Source: Loigolactobacillus bifermentans DSM 20003 (GTDB taxonomy: Bacteria > Bacillota > Bacilli > Lactobacillales > Lactobacillaceae). From it: a stretch of DNA of 61,362 bases. Every line of letters starts with the position of its first letter. The stretch's first letter is position 1. Made by a program: the position numbers and the translations under genes. Location: the NCBI RefSeq assembly GCF_001434575.1, contig NZ_AZDA01000007.1:1-61362 (forward strand). The letters run 5' to 3'. The notes below the pieces were generated by a model. It saw nothing but the letters and a program-made list of their open reading frames with translations, did not search any database and was not told the DNA's origin. Below are positions 4,195 through 49,468 of this stretch, piece by piece.

Positions 4195-5682
4195 ATGGCA
4201 GTACAGCTCAATCCAAAGTTAAAAGCACTATTGTTGGCCAGTCAATTAGGGCTGAATCAACATCACCCATTGGCAGGGTGGCATATGTTAACGATTCTTT
4301 ATCATGATGGCACCGGTAGTGGCAGTCCGATGACATTAAATTTTTTAGTGACGAAATACAATCAAGCTTATTTAGATGACGATGAAACACCCATTGCTGA
4401 CCAAGTGTTGAAAAAGATTTTAACGGTTCTTTCTGAGCAGGCAGGTTTGGTGGAAACGTCACCGCGTAAAGTGCGGGAACAAATGCAAAACGGTGGCTAT
4501 CACCTGCATCAATCGTATGTTTATCGCATTACCAGTAGTGGCATTCAGTACTTAAAAATGATGCAAGATGTGGTAGAAGCTGAAAATACGATCACAGCCA
4601 ACATTAGTCAAATCGATGAATTTTGCCAATTGGTGCAGCAGTTGGCGCAAAGTGCAGGTAAAACGCAAAATACGCAATTGTTTAATGATTTTGAGCGGAT
4701 GCGGGTCACTTATAACAATGTGATGAAAGGCATGCACAAGTTAGATGAAGATTTAGATGAATTAGCCAATAATTTAGCCTTTGATCACGGCAGTCAGGCA
4801 GCTGAGCAGTTGCAACAAATGCTGAATGAGAAGGCCTTGCCAGCCTTTAATCAATTGATGCAGCAGGAGGCCCCTATTCAGGCGCTGACGCATTTAGCGG
4901 ATTTTCCCGAGCGCGTTGCCCGCAGTCAACAAGGCCAAGATGACCTGGATGCCAGCCATGCGGTAGGGGATCAGGCGAAAATGACCGTGCGTTTTCAACG
5001 GACGCGGGATTACGTACGGGCCCAGTTGGCGCAAATTGAGCTGAGTTTTACCTCCACGGCCAATGCCATGGACACCAGCTTGGATTCGATGTTTATGTTG
5101 TTTCAAACGTTGACCGGTGTTAGCGAGCGCTTAAGTCGTGAGTATGAGCGGATTCAATCACAAACCGTGGATATTCAGGCCTTGACGCGGCAGATCGACC
5201 AGCTGATGACCCATTATGAAACGGTGCAATTGCCTACCGCACTACCGCGGCATTTAGCGCTGGATCGGCAATTTGAGGATCCGAATGACTTTCTCACGGC
5301 GTCGGTGGCCGGGCCGGTGGTTTTTAAAGCCCAGCCCCAGCCACCGCGGAAACTAACTGTAGCGGATAATCCTGAGGTGGTCCAGCATGAAACCGTGGTG
5401 GACCAGCGGTTAGCAGGGTATCGTGAATTTTGGCAGTTGGTGAATGCACAACAACAATTAGTGGTGGCACAACCGTTGGAATTTACCACGCAACTGGCGC
5501 GCGATGAAGTGATTCGGCTCTACAGTGCCACTGGCTATGATCATTATGAAAGCTTTGCGCCGTTTAGCCGTCCGGTTAAGTCCGTCCAAACGTTGGCAAT
5601 CGGCCAATTAAAACTGCACTGTCGTGGTGAAGCTTACAGTGTCTTTTTACCCAGTGGCTTTGTGGTTCAATTTGAAAAGTGA
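4195..5682 (+). CDS. jetA: Wadjet JetA-like kleisin subunit
   Basis: The 495-aa protein is first in a four-gene unit whose order and sizes match Wadjet systems (JetA kleisin, JetB KITE, JetC SMC, JetD Toprim nuclease). The N-terminal 120 residues look like a winged-helix segment, followed by long alpha-helical stretches (about 130-330) and a C-terminal beta-rich tail, as expected of a MukF-like kleisin. The start is placed at ATG 4195, seven nt after AGAGGTG, rather than at the in-frame ATG 4177, which precedes that site. JetB begins 10 nt after its stop. Identification rests mainly on the gene set; single-gene homology is weak by eye. Confidence 0.75.
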   Translation: MAVQLNPKLKALLLASQLGLNQHHPLAGWHMLTILYHDGTGSGSPMTLNFLVTKYNQAYLDDDETPIADQVLKKILTVLSEQAGLVETSPRKVREQMQNGGYHLHQSYVYRITSSGIQYLKMMQDVVEAENTITANISQIDEFCQLVQQLAQSAGKTQNTQLFNDFERMRVTYNNVMKGMHKLDEDLDELANNLAFDHGSQAAEQLQQMLNEKALPAFNQLMQQEAPIQALTHLADFPERVARSQQGQDDLDASHAVGDQAKMTVRFQRTRDYVRAQLAQIELSFTSTANAMDTSLDSMFMLFQTLTGVSERLSREYERIQSQTVDIQALTRQIDQLMTHYETVQLPTALPRHLALDRQFEDPNDFLTASVAGPVVFKAQPQPPRKLTVADNPEVVQHETVVDQRLAGYREFWQLVNAQQQLVVAQPLEFTTQLARDEVIRLYSATGYDHYESFAPFSRPVKSVQTLAIGQLKLHCRGEAYSVFLPSGFVVQFEK

Positions 5683-6706: not shown

Positions 6707-9700
6707 AACCAGTTTGTTTTCATTTACGTAATTTTAATAAGTACCTTTCATTGGACCTCCCTGCCTCAGAAAATGGCAATTTAACCTTGATCGGTGAAAA
6801 TGCAGTGGGTAAAACCACCTTGGCCAACTGCTTTTTCCCGATGTTAATTGATGGCAGTATTGCCACACCATCTTTTAACCCAGCAAAAGGTACGGAACGG
6901 CTGGATAAGCAAAGTAAGCCTAAAAATAGCGCGCAAGATACCCGTCATTTTGAAAATATGCTGTTAAGTTGGGGCCCAGGTGCGATGAAAGTGCGCACGG
7001 GTTACGCCTATCTCACGTTGGAATCAGAACAGCGCCAGGTGATTTTAGGGCTAGGCGCGTCGCGTGGTGACCATGAGGCGACATGGTGGTTTGTAGTGCT
7101 TCAGCCTAACGTGGCGGCTGGGCTTGATTTAGTGACGACAAAAGACGGTGTTAGCCTGAATCAGGCTGATTTTGAAACTGCTAATCAAGGGTTAGGCGAC
7201 GCGTTACATGTTTTCAATCAAGCGGTTGGTTATCGTGATTTTGTAGCCAGCCAAGTTTACGGTTTTGCCAGTGGGCAGCAGTTAACCCGGTTGGCCAATG
7301 TTTATCGTTTGTTGGCGTCACCGATTTTAACCGGGGGTAACGCGCAATTTACACCAATTTTAGCTGCTTTACGGGCTGCACAAGCAGGCATTGACACACA
7401 AGTGATGACCCAAGTGGCGGCTAGCCAGCGTGAGTTAAACCGGCGCAACGGTTTGTTAAAGCGGATCGAAACGGTCCAAAAGCGGTTGGCGAAAATGAAA
7501 CAAGTGATTTTTTGGTGTAATTTAAACCATTTAGATGAGCTTTATTTAAGTGACTATCAGGCTCAGAATACGCAGTATCAGGCGCTGAGTACCAAACTGG
7601 ATCAGATGATGACAGCGCAAACCGCCTTGCAACAGCAGCAAACCCTGACGGAAACCAGTTTACAGCAAGCAACGCAGCAATTGGCGCAGTTGCAAGTTGC
7701 CAAGCAACAACAAGATCATTTAAAAGAACAGCAACAAGCCTATCAATACCGACTTGAAATGGCTCAAGCCGCAATTGCACGTTTTGAAAAAGCAACCGCA
7801 GCTTTAGCTGTAGCACAGCAGAAATTAGAACAAGTTCAAGCGCGCTTAAAACGCTATCAGCAGCAAATCGCAAACTTGTTGGCAACGCGCATTAAGCCGC
7901 TGCAAGCTCAAATCAGTGCGCAAACTGCACAGCTACCAGAACTGGCACAGCAGTTGGCGGAAATTGATGATCAAGTGATGGTGACACGTTTAACCGATTA
8001 TTTAAAGCAGTTACAGCAAGCTTTAACGGATTATCAAGCGTTAAAAGATACCATTGTCCAGCTGGGATTAGACGTTCAGATCGTAGATGAGATGCAAACG
8101 GCATTAGCACAACGGATTCAACAGCGGGTACAGGGGCCGTTGGTCAGTCGCATGCGTGAAGGCTTGTTAGCAGACAACAGCCAAGTCCATGCAACTGGTA
8201 AAGTGAAAATGAACCAGGCCGCTGCAGCACTGCAACAGCAACAACAGACTTTGTTGGCCGCCCATGCCGATTTAAAGTATTTTTTAGCGGATCAAGCCCA
8301 GTTTAAACAACTACAAACGTGGGTCGCGGCTTTAAAAGATGCCTTTGTTCAGCGGACGCAATTGCAAACTACCCTTGAGCAATGTGCCACTAAATTACAA
8401 TCCGGTCAGGAGCAAGTGGCGCAGATCAAAGATAGCATGGACCCGGATTTTGAGCTTGCTACGACACAAGCGACCATCCAGCAGTTACAGCAGCAATTGG
8501 CCCAATTGGTGATCGATCCCCAGTTAACACAGAAATTAACGCAAACCCAGCAACAGGTTACAAAATTGGAACAACAGCGTCAGACGATTTTAGTGAAAGT
8601 AGCTGAACAAAAGGGCCAAATCGCTGGGACCATTGCACAATTAAATGCGCTTAAACAAGCTTTGTTTGCACTACAACAACGCCTACAGCCGGCCATTAAA
8701 TTACTGGCACATTATCAACCTGATGAGGTGGTATTACAAGACTTAGCGCAGTTAAACGCCTTTACCACCAGTCATCGAAGTGCCATTCGGAATCATAAGT
8801 ACGCGACGATCAGTGTCCGGGTGGGACAATTGATTCGGCGTAATACGGCCCAAGGTCTGGATGAAAATGCCATTGATGATTTGCTCATGGAACGCGGCCG
8901 TACGACAGACGCGTTACAAATGCGGCAAGAATCATTGCAAGAACAAGCCGAATTAACCGTGCCCACCTTTGATCTGCAAGATTTACAAACGTTTATGGTA
9001 GCGGACCGCCAGCGGATCCAGAAGGCGTTTGATCAGTCTGAAAAAACCAACGAAGCCGCGCAAACAGCGTATTTAGGGGCAGCCGTTGGGACAATTTCAG
9101 CGCAATACCGGGTGATTCAAACGTATAATCACATGTTAACCGAAGGCAATCGCGCCCAAGGCATTCAACTGAAAATCGTTTTACAGCCAGACAAAGGCCT
9201 TGATCCAGCAGTGATTGAAGAAGCTTGCGATATGACCTTGTTAGAACGACCAACGTTACAACATGAGATTCAACGGCGATTGCAAAATTTAGCACAGGAT
9301 ATGCAAGTGGCTAATGACCCAGCAGCCTTTCAAAACAAAGCTGAAGAATTACTAGATACCCGCTATTGGTCCAACTTCCAAGTGCTGATCAAGCGGCGCT
9401 CTAGCGACGCTGAAGATTATGAAGTGGTGGATGATAAGTTTGTGCGCTCAGGGGGTTCAGGTGCGGAAAAGTCCCAAGCCATGATCTTACCGTTACTACT
9501 GGTGCCTAAAATGATTTTAAGCCAAACGCAAGTCAAAGATGTGCCTTGTTTGGTGATGTTTGATGAATTCGCCGATAAGTTGGATCCTGAAACGGCTAAG
9601 ATCTTTGCGAAAACCATTGCCAACTTTGGCTTTAGCTTTATCGCCACCATGCCTGGTGGCACGCAAAATAAATTATTGGCGGATGGTGTTGCGAACATTG

Positions 9701-25325: not shown

Positions 25326-25369
25326 AATAGGCAATTAGTAACCGATTAAAAATAAATTACAAAACACTT

Positions 25370-25627
25370 TGAAAAAGAAAAAGTATTTCTCATTCAATTG
25401 TCAGCGAGCTTCGTCAGGTGAAAGGAAGCCAATTGAATCTGAAAGAAGATCATCTTTGAGTGCCGGGATGAACCAAGTAATTTCCGGTGGGTGCGCCCAT
25501 TATTGCGTCATTGTATCGCTATTTCGGTAGCCGTACAGGGAGAGGCATGTTGCGCGAGCAAGATGCAAACAAAAGGTGGTAACACGAATTTTCGTCCTTT
25601 AACTGTCAGAGACAGTTAGGGGACTTT
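25370..25627 (+). promoter_or_regulatory. T-box leader, predicted isoleucine specifier
   Basis: T-box AAGGTGGTAACACG at 25573-25586, and terminator GTCC..TAACTGTC/GACAGTTA..GGAC plus T6 (25594-25630). In stem I an AGTA motif (25382-25385) precedes the upper helix ATTCAATTG/CAATTGAAT. Opposite it the loop ends in GAAG-ATC-A before the base helix TCTTT, placing ATC (Ile) at 25449-25451. The distal part of stem I is short. Confidence 0.85.
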
Positions 25628-25663
25628 TTTAATCGGTTAAATTTGAGGAAGGAAGTTGAGATT

Positions 25664-36014: not shown

Positions 36015-36043
36015 TTGACAAATGTAAACACTTGCGCAATAAT
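36015..36043 (+). promoter_or_regulatory. promoter of first Met T-box
   Basis: TTGACA (36015-36020), 17-bp spacer, AATAAT (36038-36043). Confidence 0.7.
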
Positions 36044-36059
36044 CAAACTAATTTAATAA

Positions 36060-36328
36060 TCTGAGTAAAAAATGAAAAGATGAGTAAGCTAATTTAGCGG
36101 CATAGCGAGTTACGGTTGGTGCAAGGTAACACGACTAAATAGTTGAAGATGGTCTTTTGATAATCGTTGCATCAGTGAGCGGGGAACCGTTAGCGGATGC
36201 CGGGGGTGCCCGTTAACGCTGTCGTATCAACAAAGATACGATGTAAGTTGTAATTTGTAAAAATTATGAGAAAACAGGTGGTACCGCGAAATAGCTTTCG
36301 TCCTGATTAGGATGCAAGCTATTTTTTT
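36060..36328 (+). promoter_or_regulatory. Met T-box leader A
   Basis: T-box AGGTGGTACCGCGAA at 36276-36290 and terminator AAATAGCTT/AAGCTATTT plus T-run to 36328. Stem I shows GATGAGTA at its 5' side, upper helix CTAATTTAG/CTAAATAG and the loop TTGAAG-ATG-G before TCTTT, placing specifier ATG (Met) at 36149-36151. No gene lies between this element and the next T-box. Confidence 0.9.
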
Positions 36329-36342
36329 ATTTAAAAAAAGTG

Positions 36343-36371
36343 TTGACTTTCGATCGCAATGGCACTAAGAT
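36343..36371 (+). promoter_or_regulatory. second promoter between the tandem T-boxes
   Basis: TTGACT (36343-36348), 17-bp spacer, TAAGAT (36366-36371), starting 15 bp after the T-run of T-box A. Confidence 0.7.
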
Positions 36372-36394
36372 ACTAATCAATCAAAACAATTAAA

Positions 36395-36680
36395 AGCAAA
36401 TGAAAAGATGAGTAACCGAATTTATTATTCCCAGAGAGTTATCGCAAGGTGCAAGATAACAATAATCAGTCGGTGAAAATGGTCTTGGATGCAATCTAGG
36501 CTTAAGCCAGTCGAATACCTAGCGGGTACGCCCGATAACGCGTTAGGGTATGCACAGTGCGCGCACTGTAAGTACCTGAAGAGGAATGGTTCGTGAGAAT
36601 TGTTTAAATCAAGGTGGTAACGCGGAAAAGCACTTTCGCCCTTGTCTAGTGATAGATGGGGTCGAAAGTGCTTTTTTTGA
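36395..36680 (+). promoter_or_regulatory. Met T-box leader B
   Basis: T-box AAGGTGGTAACGCGGAA at 36611-36627 and terminator AAAGCACTTTCG/CGAAAGTGCTTT plus T7. The 5' side carries GATGAGTA, the upper helix closes with CCGA/TCGG, and the loop reads TGAAA-ATG-G before TCTT, placing specifier ATG (Met) at 36479-36481. Confidence 0.9.
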
Positions 36681-36703
36681 TTCAAAAAGGAAGAGTGATT
36701 AAA

Positions 36704-37714
36704 ATGGCATATTCACGTAAGGAAGTTTTAAAAGCATTTCATAACGAAGATGAAATAACAATTCCAGTAGCATTTTGGCGCCATTTTGCAGCAAGTGAAT
36801 TTATTGACGGTTTACAGCATCCTGAGGTGTTTGACCTTAATTTAAATGGTCATCAAAAATTTATTGAAGCCACTGAACCTGATTTTGTCAAAACGATGTC
36901 AGATGGCTACTTTGCTTATCCGTTTTTAAATGTTGATGATCCGAAACAATTATCAGACTTGGCACAACTTGATAATTTGCCAATTGATCATCCTTGGTTA
37001 ACAGGCCAAAAAGCATTAGCAGCTGGTCAAAAAAAATTAGCAGGTGATCGTCCAACATTTTATACAGTTTTTTCACCGCTTATTATTTTGAAATGGGCCT
37101 TAATCAACCATGATACAGAACCATTATTACGCTCTGATCGGCGCCTAGCTGACTTGTATCAAGCAAATCCTAAATTGATCAAAACAGTGCTTTTTAAAAT
37201 TGCTGATGATTTAAAACAATTGATTCCAATTCTGCTGGAAAGTGGTATTGATGGTATTTACTACAGCACCCAATCTATTCAGGATAGTCGTGTTGATAAT
37301 CGTGACTTTTTCGATGAAGTGATGGCACCAGTTGATATTGATATTCAAAATGAAATTAATCGTTATTTCAATTTGAATATTTTGCATATTTGTGGTTTTG
37401 CTGGTGCAACTAATCATTTGGATTGGTTTACAGATTATCCACTTCAAGTGATCAATTGGGCAACAGATGTAGATGGTTACAGTTTGGCTGAAGGTAAAGC
37501 GTTGTTTGGTGGCCGTCCGGTTTTAGGTGGTTTTAATAATGCAACCGATGGTGTTTTATATTCTGGTACAAAAGCTGAGATTCAGGCAGAAGCAAAACGA
37601 ATCGTCACTGAAGCAGGTCGTAAGGGCGTTATTATTGGTGCTGATTGCACAATTCCGCGCGATACACCAATTGAACATGTACGTTGGGCGATTGAGGCGA
37701 TTCATCAATTATAA
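36704..37714 (+). CDS. URO-D/MetE-superfamily methyltransferase-like protein
   Basis: The 336-aa protein belongs to the uroporphyrinogen decarboxylase-like (PF01208) group that includes the methylcobamide:thiol methyltransferases MtaA, MtbA and CmuA. The H-x-C zinc motif is at His228/Cys230 (LHICGF) and a distal Cys315 in ADCTIPRDTP completes the expected metal site. The uroporphyrinogen-binding N-terminal arginines of HemE are not evident, so heme synthesis is unlikely. ATG 36704 follows AAGGAAG. As first gene behind two Met T-boxes, I infer methyl transfer from an imported compound to a thiol such as homocysteine. No corrinoid protein is encoded nearby. Confidence 0.78.
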   Translation: MAYSRKEVLKAFHNEDEITIPVAFWRHFAASEFIDGLQHPEVFDLNLNGHQKFIEATEPDFVKTMSDGYFAYPFLNVDDPKQLSDLAQLDNLPIDHPWLTGQKALAAGQKKLAGDRPTFYTVFSPLIILKWALINHDTEPLLRSDRRLADLYQANPKLIKTVLFKIADDLKQLIPILLESGIDGIYYSTQSIQDSRVDNRDFFDEVMAPVDIDIQNEINRYFNLNILHICGFAGATNHLDWFTDYPLQVINWATDVDGYSLAEGKALFGGRPVLGGFNNATDGVLYSGTKAEIQAEAKRIVTEAGRKGVIIGADCTIPRDTPIEHVRWAIEAIHQL

Positions 37715-37730
37715 GAAAGGTGGGTTCCGA

Positions 37731-38474
37731 ATGTTACTAGAGCTTAAGCAGTTAAAAAAACAATTTAAAGAGAATCATGTGTTAAAAGGAATCGACCTTT
37801 CAGTTAATAAAGGAGAAGTAATTGTTATTATTGGGCCTTCAGGCTCAGGAAAAACAACTTTATTACGAAATATTAACTTTCTTGAAACTGCAGACTCCGG
37901 TACGATGGCATTTCGTGATCAACAAATTGATTTATCAAGACCAACGAAGGAACAAATTTTATGGGTTCGGCGTCATACGGCAATGGTTTTCCAAAATTAT
38001 AATCTTTTTAAAAATAAAACAGCTTTAGAAAATATTTCAGAGGGTTTGGTTTTTGGACAAGGTAAAAGTAAATTGGAGGCTGATGAACTTGCAGAAAAGG
38101 CGCTTGATCAGGTTGGACTATTAGATAAAAAAGGATTTTATCCATCGCAGTTATCTGGTGGACAACAACAGCGAATAGGGATTGCGCGTGCCACTGTTTT
38201 AAATCCAGATATTGTTTTATTTGATGAACCGACCTCTGCTTTGGATCCTGAGTTAGTAGGAACCGTTTTACACGATATGAAGCAGCTAGCTGATCAAGGT
38301 CAGACTATGATTGTGGTCACACATCAAATGTCTTTTGCGCGTAACGTTGCCAGTCGAGTTGCATTTTTTGCAGATGGCGAGATTCTTGAAACCGGCCGAC
38401 CAGATGAAATTTTTGATCATCCACAACACGAACGTACGCAACAATTCTTATCTGCAATTGCAGAAGACTATTAA
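37731..38474 (+). CDS. polar amino acid-type ABC transporter ATPase
   Basis: The 247-aa ATPase of the HisP/GlnQ family has Walker A GPSGSGKTT, signature LSGGQQQRIGIARA and Walker B IVLFDEPTSALDPE. ATG 37731 is behind GAAAGGTGGG; the frame is open upstream but overlaps the preceding gene. AT-rich like the rest of this operon. Confidence 0.88.
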   Translation: MLLELKQLKKQFKENHVLKGIDLSVNKGEVIVIIGPSGSGKTTLLRNINFLETADSGTMAFRDQQIDLSRPTKEQILWVRRHTAMVFQNYNLFKNKTALENISEGLVFGQGKSKLEADELAEKALDQVGLLDKKGFYPSQLSGGQQQRIGIARATVLNPDIVLFDEPTSALDPELVGTVLHDMKQLADQGQTMIVVTHQMSFARNVASRVAFFADGEILETGRPDEIFDHPQHERTQQFLSAIAEDY

Positions 38475-38491
38475 TTGAGGAGGGGGATTTT

Positions 38492-39163
38492 ATGAAACTT
38501 AGTAAAGTCATTACCTCACTATTACAAGGTTTACCAACAACTTTGATTTTACTGGTACTATCATTTATTTTTGCTAGTTTAATTGGTTTAGGACTTGCTT
38601 GGCTTTATTTAAGAAAGAATATTCTTGCAAGTGGTGTTGCGAAAGGCTATTTAGGATTAGTACGTGGTACACCACCATTATTGATGTTATTACTGGCTTA
38701 CTATGGCTTGCCAAAATTATTTCAATTAGTAGGAATTAATATTAATGATTGGGCAAAGCTGATTTTTGGGATTGCCGGTTTATCAATTGGTTGGAGTGCA
38801 TATCTTGCTGAAGCATTTCGTTCCGCCTATTTATCAGTTGATAGAGGCCAATATGAAGCAGCTTTAGCTGTTGGTATGGATGACAAACGCGCTTTTCAAC
38901 GTATTTTAATGCCACAAACATTTTTGATTGCTTTACCTAATATTGAGAACTTGTTGATTGGTTTAGTAAAAGCAACATCGTTGGTTTATGTTATTGGGAT
39001 TGTTGATATGTACAGCGCTGCAACAGATTTATCAAATCAAAATCAAGGGGTTTATCAACTTGAAATATTTGTCATTTTAGCTTTGATTTATTGGATTGTC
39101 GTCCTGATCATTGAGTGGGGTTTTCGGCATTTTCGGAAACACTATCAGTACGTGACTGTTTAA
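38492..39163 (+). CDS. polar amino acid-type ABC transporter permease 1
   Basis: The 223-aa permease of the HisMQ/GlnP family has about five helices and EAFRSAYLSVDRGQYEAALAVG, the conserved EAA-like cytoplasmic loop, with LVRGTPPLLMLLLAYYG. GAGGAGGGG ribosome binding site. Confidence 0.87.
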   Translation: MKLSKVITSLLQGLPTTLILLVLSFIFASLIGLGLAWLYLRKNILASGVAKGYLGLVRGTPPLLMLLLAYYGLPKLFQLVGININDWAKLIFGIAGLSIGWSAYLAEAFRSAYLSVDRGQYEAALAVGMDDKRAFQRILMPQTFLIALPNIENLLIGLVKATSLVYVIGIVDMYSAATDLSNQNQGVYQLEIFVILALIYWIVVLIIEWGFRHFRKHYQYVTV

Positions 39164-39175
39164 GGAGGTGCCTAT

Positions 39176-39886
39176 ATGTTTGATCGTAAATTTGCAATTA
39201 GTTCATTTCCACAAATTTTAGCTGTGGCACCAACGACAATTTATTTGGCACTTGTGGCAACTTTAATTGGATTTATTGCAGCAGTATTAGCAGTTATTGT
39301 ACGTGAGCGCAAAATAAAAATTTTAGATCCCATTGTGGCAACACTTGTTTCGTTTATTCGTGGCACACCAATTATTGTGCAAATGTATGTTGTCTACTAT
39401 GGTTTACCGCAATTATTATACGCACTGAAAGAGTTGGGATTTAATACAAATCCAAATGGTTTGCCTGCAATTGTAATTGCAATTGCAGCCTATTCATTAA
39501 ATGCAGCAGCTAATATTTCTGAGAGTATTCGCTCGGCTTATCATTCTGTTGATCCGCGTCAGTACGAGGCAGCTATTTCTGTTGGGATGAGACCTAGCCG
39601 AGCTCTTACACGAATTGTTGTACCACAACTTGTGGCAAACTTTATTCCTAATTTTTCAAATCTGTTTTTAGATTTAATTAAAGATACAGCACTTGTTTAT
39701 AACATTGGTATCGTTGAAATCATGGCGAAAGCCAATATTATTTCATCAATTGGATTTAAGTATATTGAAACATATTTAGATGCGTTGGTTATTTACATCA
39801 TCATCTGTTGGATTTTTGCTAAGTTATTTCAAATTGGCGAAATTATCGTTCGGCACCGCGTTTTTCATACACAAGAAATTATTTAA
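39176..39886 (+). CDS. polar amino acid-type ABC transporter permease 2
   Basis: The 236-aa permease of the same family has FIRGTPIIVQMYVVYYGLP and ESIRSAYHSVDPRQYEAAISVG. Twelve bases separate it from permease 1, and AAGGAGG precedes the start. Together they form the heterodimeric channel. Confidence 0.87.
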   Translation: MFDRKFAISSFPQILAVAPTTIYLALVATLIGFIAAVLAVIVRERKIKILDPIVATLVSFIRGTPIIVQMYVVYYGLPQLLYALKELGFNTNPNGLPAIVIAIAAYSLNAAANISESIRSAYHSVDPRQYEAAISVGMRPSRALTRIVVPQLVANFIPNFSNLFLDLIKDTALVYNIGIVEIMAKANIISSIGFKYIETYLDALVIYIIICWIFAKLFQIGEIIVRHRVFHTQEII

Positions 39887-39902
39887 AAGGGGATTGTCTA
39901 TT

Positions 39903-40757
39903 ATGAAGTTAAAAAATGTTTTAAAAGGTTTAACACTTGTTTCAGCACTTGGGGGTGCATTTTTAGTAACTGCCGGTCAGCAGACAACAGTACATGCTGC
40001 AACAACAATTAATGTTGCAGCACCTAATAATAATCGGCCATACACTTATCCGAAGGGTTCCGGTATTGGGGGCTATTATGGTGCATTGCTAAAGCGAATT
40101 GATAAAGACTTGCCACAATATAAGTTTAAAGAAACAACAACTTCTCAAAATTCTGTCTTTGTTGGGTTACAATCTGGTAAATATGATTTAGCTGCTTCAA
40201 ATTGGTGGTATTCTAAAGATCGTTTTAAGACTTACTATCACACAACTTCCAATGGGTTAGATGATTTACGCTTAATTAACAAAAAGGGTGGCAAACAAGC
40301 GAACTCTTTAGCTGATATTGCAAAAAAGAATTTGAAGTTGGTACCAATTTCAACAGATGATGCACGTTATAACGTTATCGAAACTTATAATAAAGAAAAT
40401 TCAAAGAATAAAATCGATTTACAAGGAATTGGCGATCAATCTGCAGGGGATGCTTTAAAGGAAGTTTCAACAGGTAAGTATGATGTTGCGATTTATCCTT
40501 ATGCAGCTTATAAACCAGTTGCGAATACTAAAGAAGGTAAAAAGTTATCACCATCTAAGTCGATAGGTTTGGAAAACAGTTACTTCTTATTGAACAAGAG
40601 TAGCCAAAATAAAAAGCTTGTAACAGCAATCAATAAAGATTTAAAGAAGCTAAAAGCAAATGGTTATTTGGAAAAAATCACCAAGCAGTACTTATATGAA
40701 GATACTTTTAAATTACCAAATGCCAACAAAACATTTAATGCTGATCCAACAAAATAA
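39903..40757 (+). CDS. polar amino acid-type ABC transporter substrate-binding protein
   Basis: The 284-aa SBP_bac_3-type protein has a Sec signal (MKLKNVLKG, hydrophobic core, cleavage near VHA-AT). The mature part shows SVFVGLQSGKYDLAASNWWYS, the 'Q-G-K-D' ligand-domain pattern of this family. There is no lipobox cysteine. Ligand not deducible; the operon context suggests methionine or a methylated/thiol-derived amino acid. Confidence 0.82.
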   Translation: MKLKNVLKGLTLVSALGGAFLVTAGQQTTVHAATTINVAAPNNNRPYTYPKGSGIGGYYGALLKRIDKDLPQYKFKETTTSQNSVFVGLQSGKYDLAASNWWYSKDRFKTYYHTTSNGLDDLRLINKKGGKQANSLADIAKKNLKLVPISTDDARYNVIETYNKENSKNKIDLQGIGDQSAGDALKEVSTGKYDVAIYPYAAYKPVANTKEGKKLSPSKSIGLENSYFLLNKSSQNKKLVTAINKDLKKLKANGYLEKITKQYLYEDTFKLPNANKTFNADPTK

Positions 40758-40780
40758 TGTGAGAAAGTAGCTGATGGGAA

Positions 40781-41308
40781 ATGATTGGTGACGGAAAAAT
40801 AGGTGATATTGAACAAATTAGGGCAACTAATCAACCTACATTAACTGATGATGTCACATTAGCCTTACGTGCGATTACAGAAAAACGTGCAACGACAATG
40901 ACGCATATGATTGATAAAGCAAAAGAAGACGATCAGTTTGCACGAGATGCAGTTTGGCAGTATGGATTGGATAATGGTGAAGATTTTAAAGGTATTATGA
41001 TTAATCCAGATGATATTCGGGAATTTGCTGATAAGTTTACGAATACATTAGAAGCCAATGTTTATGAAATGGAAACTGTTAATGTGACCGATGATGAATT
41101 TGAGGTACACTTTCATTATTGTCCCTATGTGGCACGTTGGTTACGTATGGGGAAAAATCCAGTTGAACTTAGTCATTTATGCGATACTTGCATGTTAGGC
41201 GATCAAGCAACTGCTTCAGTATTTAATAAGATTGATTTTCATTTAGGCGATACAATTGCGAAGGGAAACTCCTATTGTAAGCTACGCTATACAAGACATC
41301 AGGAGTAA
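40781..41308 (+). CDS. L-2-amino-thiazoline-4-carboxylic acid hydrolase-family protein
   Basis: The 175-aa protein matches the ATC_hydrolase family (PF14196): FHYCPYVARWLRMG, LSHLCDTCMLGDQA, and DFHLGDTIAKGNSYCKLR at the C-terminus with conserved Cys, Asp and His residues. The characterised Pseudomonas enzyme opens a thiazoline ring on the way to L-cysteine; most family members are uncharacterised. It is last in the Met T-box operon, so a role on a sulfur-containing compound is inferred. The start is uncertain, since its Shine-Dalgarno is poor. Confidence 0.78.
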   Translation: MIGDGKIGDIEQIRATNQPTLTDDVTLALRAITEKRATTMTHMIDKAKEDDQFARDAVWQYGLDNGEDFKGIMINPDDIREFADKFTNTLEANVYEMETVNVTDDEFEVHFHYCPYVARWLRMGKNPVELSHLCDTCMLGDQATASVFNKIDFHLGDTIAKGNSYCKLRYTRHQE

Positions 41309-41316
41309 ATAGCGTC

Positions 41317-41359
41317 AAAAGGATTCAGGAATTGATAATTGAATTTCTGGATCCTTTTT
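41317..41359 (+). terminator. terminator of Met T-box operon
   Basis: AAAAGGATTCAGGAATT/AATTTCTGGATCCTTTT stem plus T-run. Confidence 0.85.
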
Positions 41360-49169: not shown

Positions 49170-49468
49170 AAATGAAGTTGTGATTAGAACAAGTAAACGT
49201 GATAAGTTGCAAAGAGAGTGCCGTTGCTGAGAAGGTATCAATTTGTCCGTTGAACACACGTCTATGAACTTGCCAGTTGAATCAAGTAGGCTGACACGCA
49301 GCAAGTGCGTTATCATAGTTGCTTTTCTCTGTTCTCGTAAGACGACTAGAGTACAGCAACGTGAGGTTGTTATCGTGAGGTAACAACAAATTGAGGTGGA
49401 ATCACGATTATTTAGTCAATCGTCCTCGAGGTCCTGTTATTTGGCAGGGCTTCGGGGATTTTTTTTTA
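49170..49468 (+). promoter_or_regulatory. His T-box leader
   Basis: T-box AGGTGGAATCACGA at 49394-49407, followed by terminator TCCTCGAGGTCCTG/CAGGGCTTCGGGGA plus T8 (49422-49466). Stem I has distal TGCC/GGTA, base helix ACGT/ACGT and the loop TTGAA-CAC-A, giving specifier CAC (His) at 49255-49257. This agrees with the downstream genes. Confidence 0.9.

Follow-up and report, generated by a model that had tools for sequence, protein, structure and literature searches.

We analysed a window of 61,362 nt (the whole stretch of DNA presented here) from Loigolactobacillus bifermentans DSM 20003 (contig NZ_AZDA01000007.1, assembly GCF_001434575.1), in which a six-gene operon at 36015-41359 places a gene of the uroporphyrinogen decarboxylase (UroD) superfamily beside the genes of an ATP-binding cassette (ABC) importer of the polar-amino-acid type (PAAT). 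At about even odds (a probability near 0.5), we read this operon as a corrinoid-free system for salvaging S-methyl compounds, giving methionine and/or cysteine, that was probably acquired horizontally. The parts of this reading differ in strength. Salvage of sulfur amino acids by the importer and the UroD enzyme is likely, S-methyl transfer by the enzyme is slightly favoured, and homocysteine as the methyl acceptor without a corrinoid is a tentative proposal. An earlier sequence-only reading had described six AT-rich genes between a promoter and a terminator, including a complete polar-amino-acid ABC importer; all of these parts were located, the flanking elements as a promoter-like site and a terminator-like hairpin, and profiles matched the ATPase, two permeases and an SBP_bac_3 substrate-binding protein (SBP). 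Pfam and NCBIfam matches for the window proteins were taken at E 0.001. The features of the operon are:

36015..36043 (+): promoter-like site TTGACA-17-AATAAT, 11 of 12 consensus positions, a consensus match only
36067..36308 (+): T-box 1, Met specifier AUG, 85.1 bits, E 1.1e-18, with a terminator-like hairpin at about 36288-36325
36343: second promoter-like site, between the T-boxes, 9 of 12 consensus positions
36391..36646 (+): T-box 2, Met specifier AUG, 101.2 bits, with a terminator-like hairpin at about 36624-36677
36704..37714 (+): UroD-superfamily protein, putative zinc S-methyltransferase, PF01208, 52.9 bits
37731..38474 (+): ABC importer ATPase, PAAT type, PF00005, best NCBIfam match TcyN
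38492..39163 (+): ABC importer permease A, PF00528, TIGR01726
39176..39886 (+): ABC importer permease B, PF00528, TIGR01726
39903..40757 (+): substrate-binding protein SBP_bac_3, profile match
40781..41308 (+): ATC_hydrolase-family protein, accessory gene, PF14196, 55.8 bits against a cut-off of 28.1
41317..41358 (+): terminator-like hairpin and U-run 3' of the last gene, -20.7 kcal/mol, z -6.4

The conserved unit is the UroD gene with its His-Cys-Cys site together with the PAAT importer, and the ATC_hydrolase gene is an accessory. The sequence-only reading had staked its proposal on the gene set recurring elsewhere, and for the UroD and importer genes it does. A complete PAAT importer lies beside the UroD gene in all 14 loci first collected for close UroD homologs (3 through a search for ATC_hydrolase, 11 from 11 of 60 matching genomes). 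In a scan of one genome per species, 454 stretches encode a UroD relative, and the best 80 of them gave 79 named loci, mainly from streptococci (53 Streptococcus) and lactobacilli (20, kin included), with 1 Enterococcus and 5 spirochaete metagenome-assembled genomes (MAGs). The importer, counted when within 6 kb, adjoins the UroD gene in 75 of the 79. With U for UroD, S for binding protein, P for permease and A for ATPase, the gene orders are U-U-S-P-P-A (37 loci), U-S-P-P-A (14), U-A-P-P-S (6, and 3 more with the ATC_hydrolase gene), A-P-P-S-U (4) and some less common arrangements. L109 encodes importer proteins with 83-90% identity to those of the window, but its UroD protein, encoded at the opposite end, has 46% identity, which indicates an exchange of partners. 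In other classes, the importer accompanied each of the four strong matches (379-408 bits; one genus supplied two of them), and in L223-L226, from four of the nine genomes with weaker matches, tblastn found no PAAT permease or binding protein, two of these contigs being shorter than 5 kb. A Spirochaetales MAG (L171) has the full module, followed by MetN with a NIL domain, and the neighbours in Treponema and Spirochaetaceae showed nothing consistent. Enzymes of the Cys/Met pyridoxal phosphate (PLP) family adjoin the module in L103 (two) and L219. As a separate observation, a short-chain dehydrogenase gene recurs beside the module outside Lactobacillales (L171 12164-12943, L219 3110-3844, L220 8247-9086).

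As a control, 20 distant UroD homologs were sampled within the same order. None of the nine that carry HxC but belong to other clades has PAAT neighbours, and eight of the ten that lack HxC have a PAAT permease and binding protein, their site being HxH with the distal Cys kept; in the remaining locus (L204) the UroD open reading frame (ORF) was not called. In a tree of 46 UroD proteins the window protein falls into a clade of 20 HxC rows (100/99), whereas 15 HxH rows lie in another clade (83/90), the split between all HxC and all HxH proteins being weak (68/53). Because of these control loci and this tree, we conclude that the PAAT partnership exists in at least two UroD lineages. Both types occur together in L061, L117 and L208, and in L207 an HxH UroD gene shares an operon with genes for an NlpA lipoprotein, a permease and an ATPase.

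The zinc-type site of the UroD protein, given as H-x-C...C in the sequence-only reading, is confirmed with the same numbering. His228, Cys230 and Cys315 are invariant in a 40-row alignment, and among 120 UroD ORFs 119 have HxC and 118 have G[AS][DN]C. These residues are the putative His-Cys-Cys zinc ligands found in MtaA and in MtaA-like proteins (Mlp), and PMC10418091 describes such a triad as the mark of S-methyltransferases within the UroD superfamily. The AlphaFold model (pLDDT 96.1) matched uroporphyrinogen decarboxylases in Foldseek with TM about 0.75 (1jpk 0.75), the coenzyme M (CoM) methyltransferase 4ay8 of M. mazei with TM 0.72 at 17% identity, and MetE (rows 1xpg and 3rpd) with TM about 0.55-0.6. 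By sequence, the best-scoring solved structure was the methylcobalamin:CoM methyltransferase 4ay7, at E 0.099 only, in which LHICG aligns with LHxCG of the UroD protein; with a smaller alignment none was found at 0.001. At E 0.001 PF01208 is its one Pfam match, with none to PF02574 (MmuM/BHMT) or PF01717 (MetE), and its NCBIfam scores of 23-27 bits for MtaA/CoM methyltransferases lie far below the cut-offs of 235-400. The annotated records examined call the gene a uroporphyrinogen decarboxylase family protein, with a note on porphyrin synthesis. That it is an ordinary uroporphyrinogen decarboxylase beside an unrelated amino-acid importer, as this automatic annotation and the overall fold would have it, is next to impossible given the HxC..C site, the conserved importer, the Met T-boxes and the absence of the HemE model from its NCBIfam matches at E 0.001.

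Provided that the UroD enzyme is a methyltransferase, it probably needs no corrinoid carrier. This is because PF02310, the B12-binding model and the only corrinoid-binding one searched, is absent from the draft genome of L. bifermentans, so that the lack of a corrinoid protein pointed out for the operon extends to that genome as far as PF02310 shows, and because elsewhere it occurs only in MetH-like ORFs. The comparison covers 23 carrier genomes, hand-picked (hence non-randomly) among genomes with the UroD gene, and 20 non-carriers, the first ones listed, all of the window's family and nine from one genus; kinship was ignored. PF02310 was found in four of the 23 carriers, always together with PF02574 in one ORF of 797-831 aa. 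A route that uses free or borrowed cobalamin for the methyl transfer, like MtaA but with an unrecognised carrier, would fit the matches to 4ay7 and 4ay8, but is very unlikely on this distribution of PF02310. Full-length MetE is present in 23/23 carriers and in 2/20 non-carriers (9/9 and 2/20 within the window's family, kinship again ignored), which indicates that the module accompanies the metabolism of homocysteine to methionine without replacing MetE. The same contrast is seen within two genera: in g6 one carrier has MetE and two non-carriers lack it, and in g17 two carriers have it and one non-carrier lacks it. In g14 MetE is present in the carrier and in one of the non-carriers, but absent from another. 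LuxS was found in 22 of the 23 carriers and MetF in all 12 tested.

The T-boxes connect the module to sulfur amino acids. In such leaders an uncharged tRNA lets transcription pass a terminator. The assignment of ATG specifiers to both T-boxes of the window holds, AUG occupying the specifier position in both Rfam alignments; T-box 2 exceeds the gathering score of the Rfam model RF00230 (93 bits) and T-box 1 falls below it despite its E-value. Besides the window, an Rfam T-box precedes the HxC UroD gene in L006, L007, L008, L057, L061, L064 and L208. Single T-boxes were found in L006 and L007 below the gathering score (search at E 0.001) and in L008, L057, L061 and L064 at the gathering threshold, and the specifier of these HxC-module T-boxes is AUG by alignment, pattern or reading. 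In L058, L059 and L077 the T-box was recognised by pattern or reading only. A pattern scan, insensitive in that it misses L220 and L221, detected a T-box core in 12 of the 79 named loci, one within a gene, and AUG was found in 10 of the 79 (nine by pattern, some with other triplets listed as well, and L103 by reading). In L220 and L221, from one genus of another class, the HxC module is preceded by a T-box in which UGC aligns at the specifier position, in the same register as AUG in the window (three bases, one base, lower stem), so that a Cys specifier is probable there on alignment. Both of these loci also contain S-adenosylmethionine (SAM) riboswitches, in L220 directly before an NlpA-like gene. 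The HxH module, too, is found under UGC (Cys) T-boxes, at L200 3383-3635 (+) by reading and L206 5350-5127 (-) by alignment, in two of ten HxH/PAAT modules (six searched at the gathering threshold and four at E 0.001, L208 being cut upstream).

Streptococcal modules may be controlled in another way. With the CmhR motif taken from PMC5359408, 8 of 20 streptococcal upstream regions contained a site matching at least 13 of 16 positions, the other 12 scoring 11 or 12, and 0-1 of 100 shuffles scored as well as these matches. Three further regions scored 13 (L060), 11 (L074) and 11 (L075), the first two coming from genomes counted before. These sites are only suggestive of CmhR control, because the eight regions may come from close relatives. 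Where no T-box was recognised before the UroD gene, in L056 (about 8507-8597, -) and L076 (about 4730-4830, +), we observed upstream of that gene a short ORF ending in DM(S/I)SAGRF(F/L)-stop, followed in L056 by a terminator-like hairpin (by eye). These ORFs could belong to a leader-peptide attenuator, a possibility on which a literature search returned nothing useful.

The importer itself suggests the class of the substrate. Its ATPase matches best the L-cystine ATPase TcyN in NCBIfam (303.7 bits, under the model cut-off of 406), and with two HEQRo-type permeases and the SBP_bac_3 protein it belongs to the PAAT importers. The solved chains nearest to the binding protein of the window are 4c0r, 4eq9, 4gvo and 2o1m, and the top five for a streptococcal partner are the same four and 2yln. 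We take these five to be glutathione (GshT) and cystine-type binders, the entries giving depositor names only. The ligand of the binding protein may vary between Lactobacillaceae and streptococci, because likely ligand positions differ in the alignment (by reading). Two donors are candidates: S-methylmethionine, which would give methionine only, and an S-methylcysteine-like compound, which would give methionine and cysteine. The former is favoured because its chemistry is easier, but explains only the Met control; the latter is favoured because of the probable Cys T-boxes in other lineages. A donor yielding methionine and a thiol would explain why the same module is under Met control in some lineages and under probable Cys control in others.

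An S-methylmethionine:homocysteine methyltransferase, with an importer that takes up S-methylmethionine and a UroD enzyme that replaces MmuM to give two methionines, is somewhat unlikely. The Met T-boxes agree with it, 15 of the 23 carriers, including L. bifermentans, are without PF02574, and, as in MmuM/BHMT chemistry, direct transfer from a sulfonium needs no corrinoid; several carrier species are plant-associated. If only methionine were made, the probable Cys T-boxes of L220 and L221 and those of the HxH modules L200 and L206 would be unexpected, and PF02574 is present in 8 of the 23 carriers. Sulfur salvage without any methyl transfer, in which the UroD barrel would cleave or rearrange an imported thioether or conjugate into a thiol with the zinc holding the sulfur, is unlikely. 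It would suit the modules under probable Cys T-boxes and the sister HxH..C enzymes, whose importer is of the same type, but we know of no lyase precedent. PMC10418091 offers evidence on both sides, since the superfamily includes epoxide coenzyme M transferase but His-Cys-Cys is described there as an S-methyltransferase signature.

In the corrinoid-free methyl-salvage reading, uncharged tRNA-Met would let transcription pass the T-box terminators, and the PAAT importer would take up a small, S-methylated, amino-acid-like sulfur compound. The UroD enzyme, at its His-Cys-Cys zinc site, would then move the methyl group to a thiol, most likely homocysteine derived from LuxS, without a corrinoid, and release the demethylated product. 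Methionine would be formed, and some substrates would also yield a thiol such as cysteine; in the few lineages with an ATC_hydrolase, that protein might process a related imported conjugate. A salvage route for sulfur amino acids with an importer and a zinc-type UroD-family protein, as the sequence-only reading had proposed, is thus the part that the analysis supports. A narrower version is unlikely, namely that HxC UroD proteins beside PAAT importers are corrinoid-free S-methylcysteine-type:homocysteine methyltransferases yielding methionine and cysteine in one step, with the HxH..C sisters and their own PAAT importers performing related chemistry for cysteine.

Several observations weigh against methyl salvage without a corrinoid. 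To our knowledge, zinc thiolates do not demethylate thioethers without a corrinoid, which speaks against S-methylcysteine, and the absence of PF02310 is compatible with the use of free cobalamin. Seven of the eight PF02574 carriers have a separate ORF of about 310-355 aa, the size of MmuM/BHMT (G566 has PF02574 only in a MetH-like ORF), and in PF02574 carriers the use of S-methylmethionine by the module could be redundant. Nor does the module replace the methionine synthase MetE, because all 23 carriers also have it. As to control, 8 of 18 upstream regions scanned had no T-box pattern, and the insensitive pattern scan found a T-box core in none of the 53 Streptococcus loci. Compared with the window, the specifier loop of L220 and L221 has one base fewer, and a reading one base earlier gives AUG, which is why their Cys specifier is only probable. 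The importer was not found in the stretch examined in four of the 79 loci (L155, L156, L169 and L177, Treponema/Spirochaetaceae MAG contigs), nor in that of a Lm. mucosae plasmid (L076, NZ_CP058956.1) with a UroD gene of 60% identity. Many typed neighbours have no link to sulfur, such as EamA (L107), GST (L162), LysR (L173), mevalonate genes (L120) and a Na/H exchanger.

The role that the sequence-only reading gave to the ATC_hydrolase gene finds no support in the form proposed. The protein passes the PF14196 gathering score, but has no NCBIfam match, and the gene is rare, being present in 3 of the 79 named loci and in 4 of 301 genomes of the window's family (L. bifermentans included), so that it is neither a fixed member of the operon nor the core of a pathway. 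Among the loci examined, it occurs together with the module only in Loigolactobacillus, where two further genomes carry the gene set, and L. kefiri. The thiazoline substrate derived from it goes back to the family name alone. Cys114, Cys134 and Cys166 are invariant in a 10-row alignment; a model built from four sequences reached a pLDDT of 57.7 and was left out of the fold search, and no solved relative was found by sequence at a useful E-value. Elsewhere in the phylum we examined 16 loci from 16 genomes with PF14196 relatives. In five (L065, L066, L068, L069 and L070; 28-45% identity) the relative adjoins a branched-chain-type ABC importer, unlike the window gene with its PAAT importer, and four of these five also contain a Cys/Met PLP enzyme, SDH_alpha (PF03313) or Dak1/Dak2. 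A Cys/Met PLP enzyme stands beside the relative in L067 and L178, from one genus, and the other nine loci have no branched-chain importer, Cys/Met PLP enzyme, SDH_alpha or Dak1/Dak2. These neighbourhoods fit a role in the breakdown of sulfur compounds, and PF14196 with the branched-chain importer appears to form an uncharacterised cluster. A corrinoid partner beside PF14196 in other genomes, guessed from gene sizes, was rejected, the genes encoding Dak1/Dak2, an aldolase, a sugar-binding protein and others.

The composition of the operon and its occurrence on plasmids point to a foreign origin. Its genes have 35.9% GC, compared with 46.8% outside the operon, and of 228 positions sampled at a length of 4.6 kb not one had a lower value. 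Horizontal acquisition is likely because a mobilizable L. kefiri plasmid (by typing) bears the same six genes, ATC_hydrolase included, and because occurrence is patchy. A Nicoliella plasmid carries two UroD genes and the importer without the ATC_hydrolase gene. With the second promoter-like site at 36343 taken into account, a single leader holding both T-boxes is likely; promoter-like sites are about as frequent in shuffled sequence (26 found, 21.8 expected, sd 4.6). The windows of the two T-box hairpins fold at -19.6 kcal/mol (z -2.8) and -33.4 kcal/mol (z -5.4), and the 3' hairpin was detected by folding and is absent from the list of a strict terminator scan. Two further T-boxes lie elsewhere in the window, one at 25360-25602 (95.8 bits) before a gene at 25643, with a specifier that may be ATC (Ile) by eye, and one at 49171-49430 (103.2 bits) before apparent histidine biosynthesis genes from 49500, as their translations read.

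Should the corrinoid-free reading hold, these bacteria would draw methionine and cysteine from a nutrient source not yet listed, and UroD-family methyltransferases would have a role without vitamin B12. Under the narrower one-step version, a UroD-fold enzyme would remove methyl groups from sulfur compounds in a way that is new, partly plasmid-borne in lactic acid bacteria. The module would also offer a compact, sometimes plasmid-borne system for learning how a zinc site handles sulfur, and its physiology can be tested directly thanks to the Met and probable Cys T-boxes.

Several known systems share single features with the module. Like MmuM/BHMT (PF02574), which transfer a methyl group from an onium donor to homocysteine at zinc, the UroD enzyme might transfer directly, but it belongs to a different Pfam family and its genome has no PF02574 match. 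With MetE/core-MetE (PF01717) it shares a related barrel fold and would share thiol methylation at zinc, but it lacks a PF01717 match and MetE is separately present in all 23 carriers. Gene 6 matches the family of L-ATC hydrolase (PF14196), whose name suggests hydrolysis of L-2-amino-thiazoline-4-carboxylate. A further relative is found among the Mlp proteins, for which PMC10418091 proposes a corrinoid-dependent salvage of methyl-sulfur or selenium compounds through type 1 mlp clusters; they share the UroD superfamily, the His-Cys-Cys zinc site and the proposed salvage to methionine. Unlike the operon described here, mlp clusters in that article include genes for a corrinoid protein and for a reductive activase, and a protein counts there as an Mlp when it is more than 25% identical to a soluble CoM methyltransferase that has been characterised, compared with 17% to 4ay8 here, not every member having been compared. 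The operon differs further by its PAAT importer, the absence of PF02310 from its genome and its weak NCBIfam scores. The main text of version 4 of PMC10418091 has no mention of T-box, ABC transporter, Streptococcus or Lactobac, and version 3 reportedly contains the word T-box once. PAAT importers under a T-box for a sulfur amino acid are known from the L. paracasei plasmid operon glnP2-glnM2-artM2-glnH4, which has a Cys T-box and higher expression without cysteine (PMC6004538); unlike here, no UroD gene belongs to it, and 'uroporphyrinogen' is absent from the main text of that article and of the T-box article PMC2494555. In the sections available of PMC5786311, a UroD gene and PAAT genes are among the induced genes of S. 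gallolyticus, not joined to each other. The sequence-only reading had called the route unrecognised, which stands in so far as the module is not described in the open papers found by our literature search, but must be qualified by the corrinoid-dependent cousin already proposed (PMC10418091). UroD-superfamily S-methyltransferases and T-box-controlled PAAT importers are known already. What is new within the open literature searched is that UroD and PAAT genes form a fixed pair, that a corrinoid carrier is probably lacking, and that there is an HxH sister module, two loci of which have Cys T-boxes.

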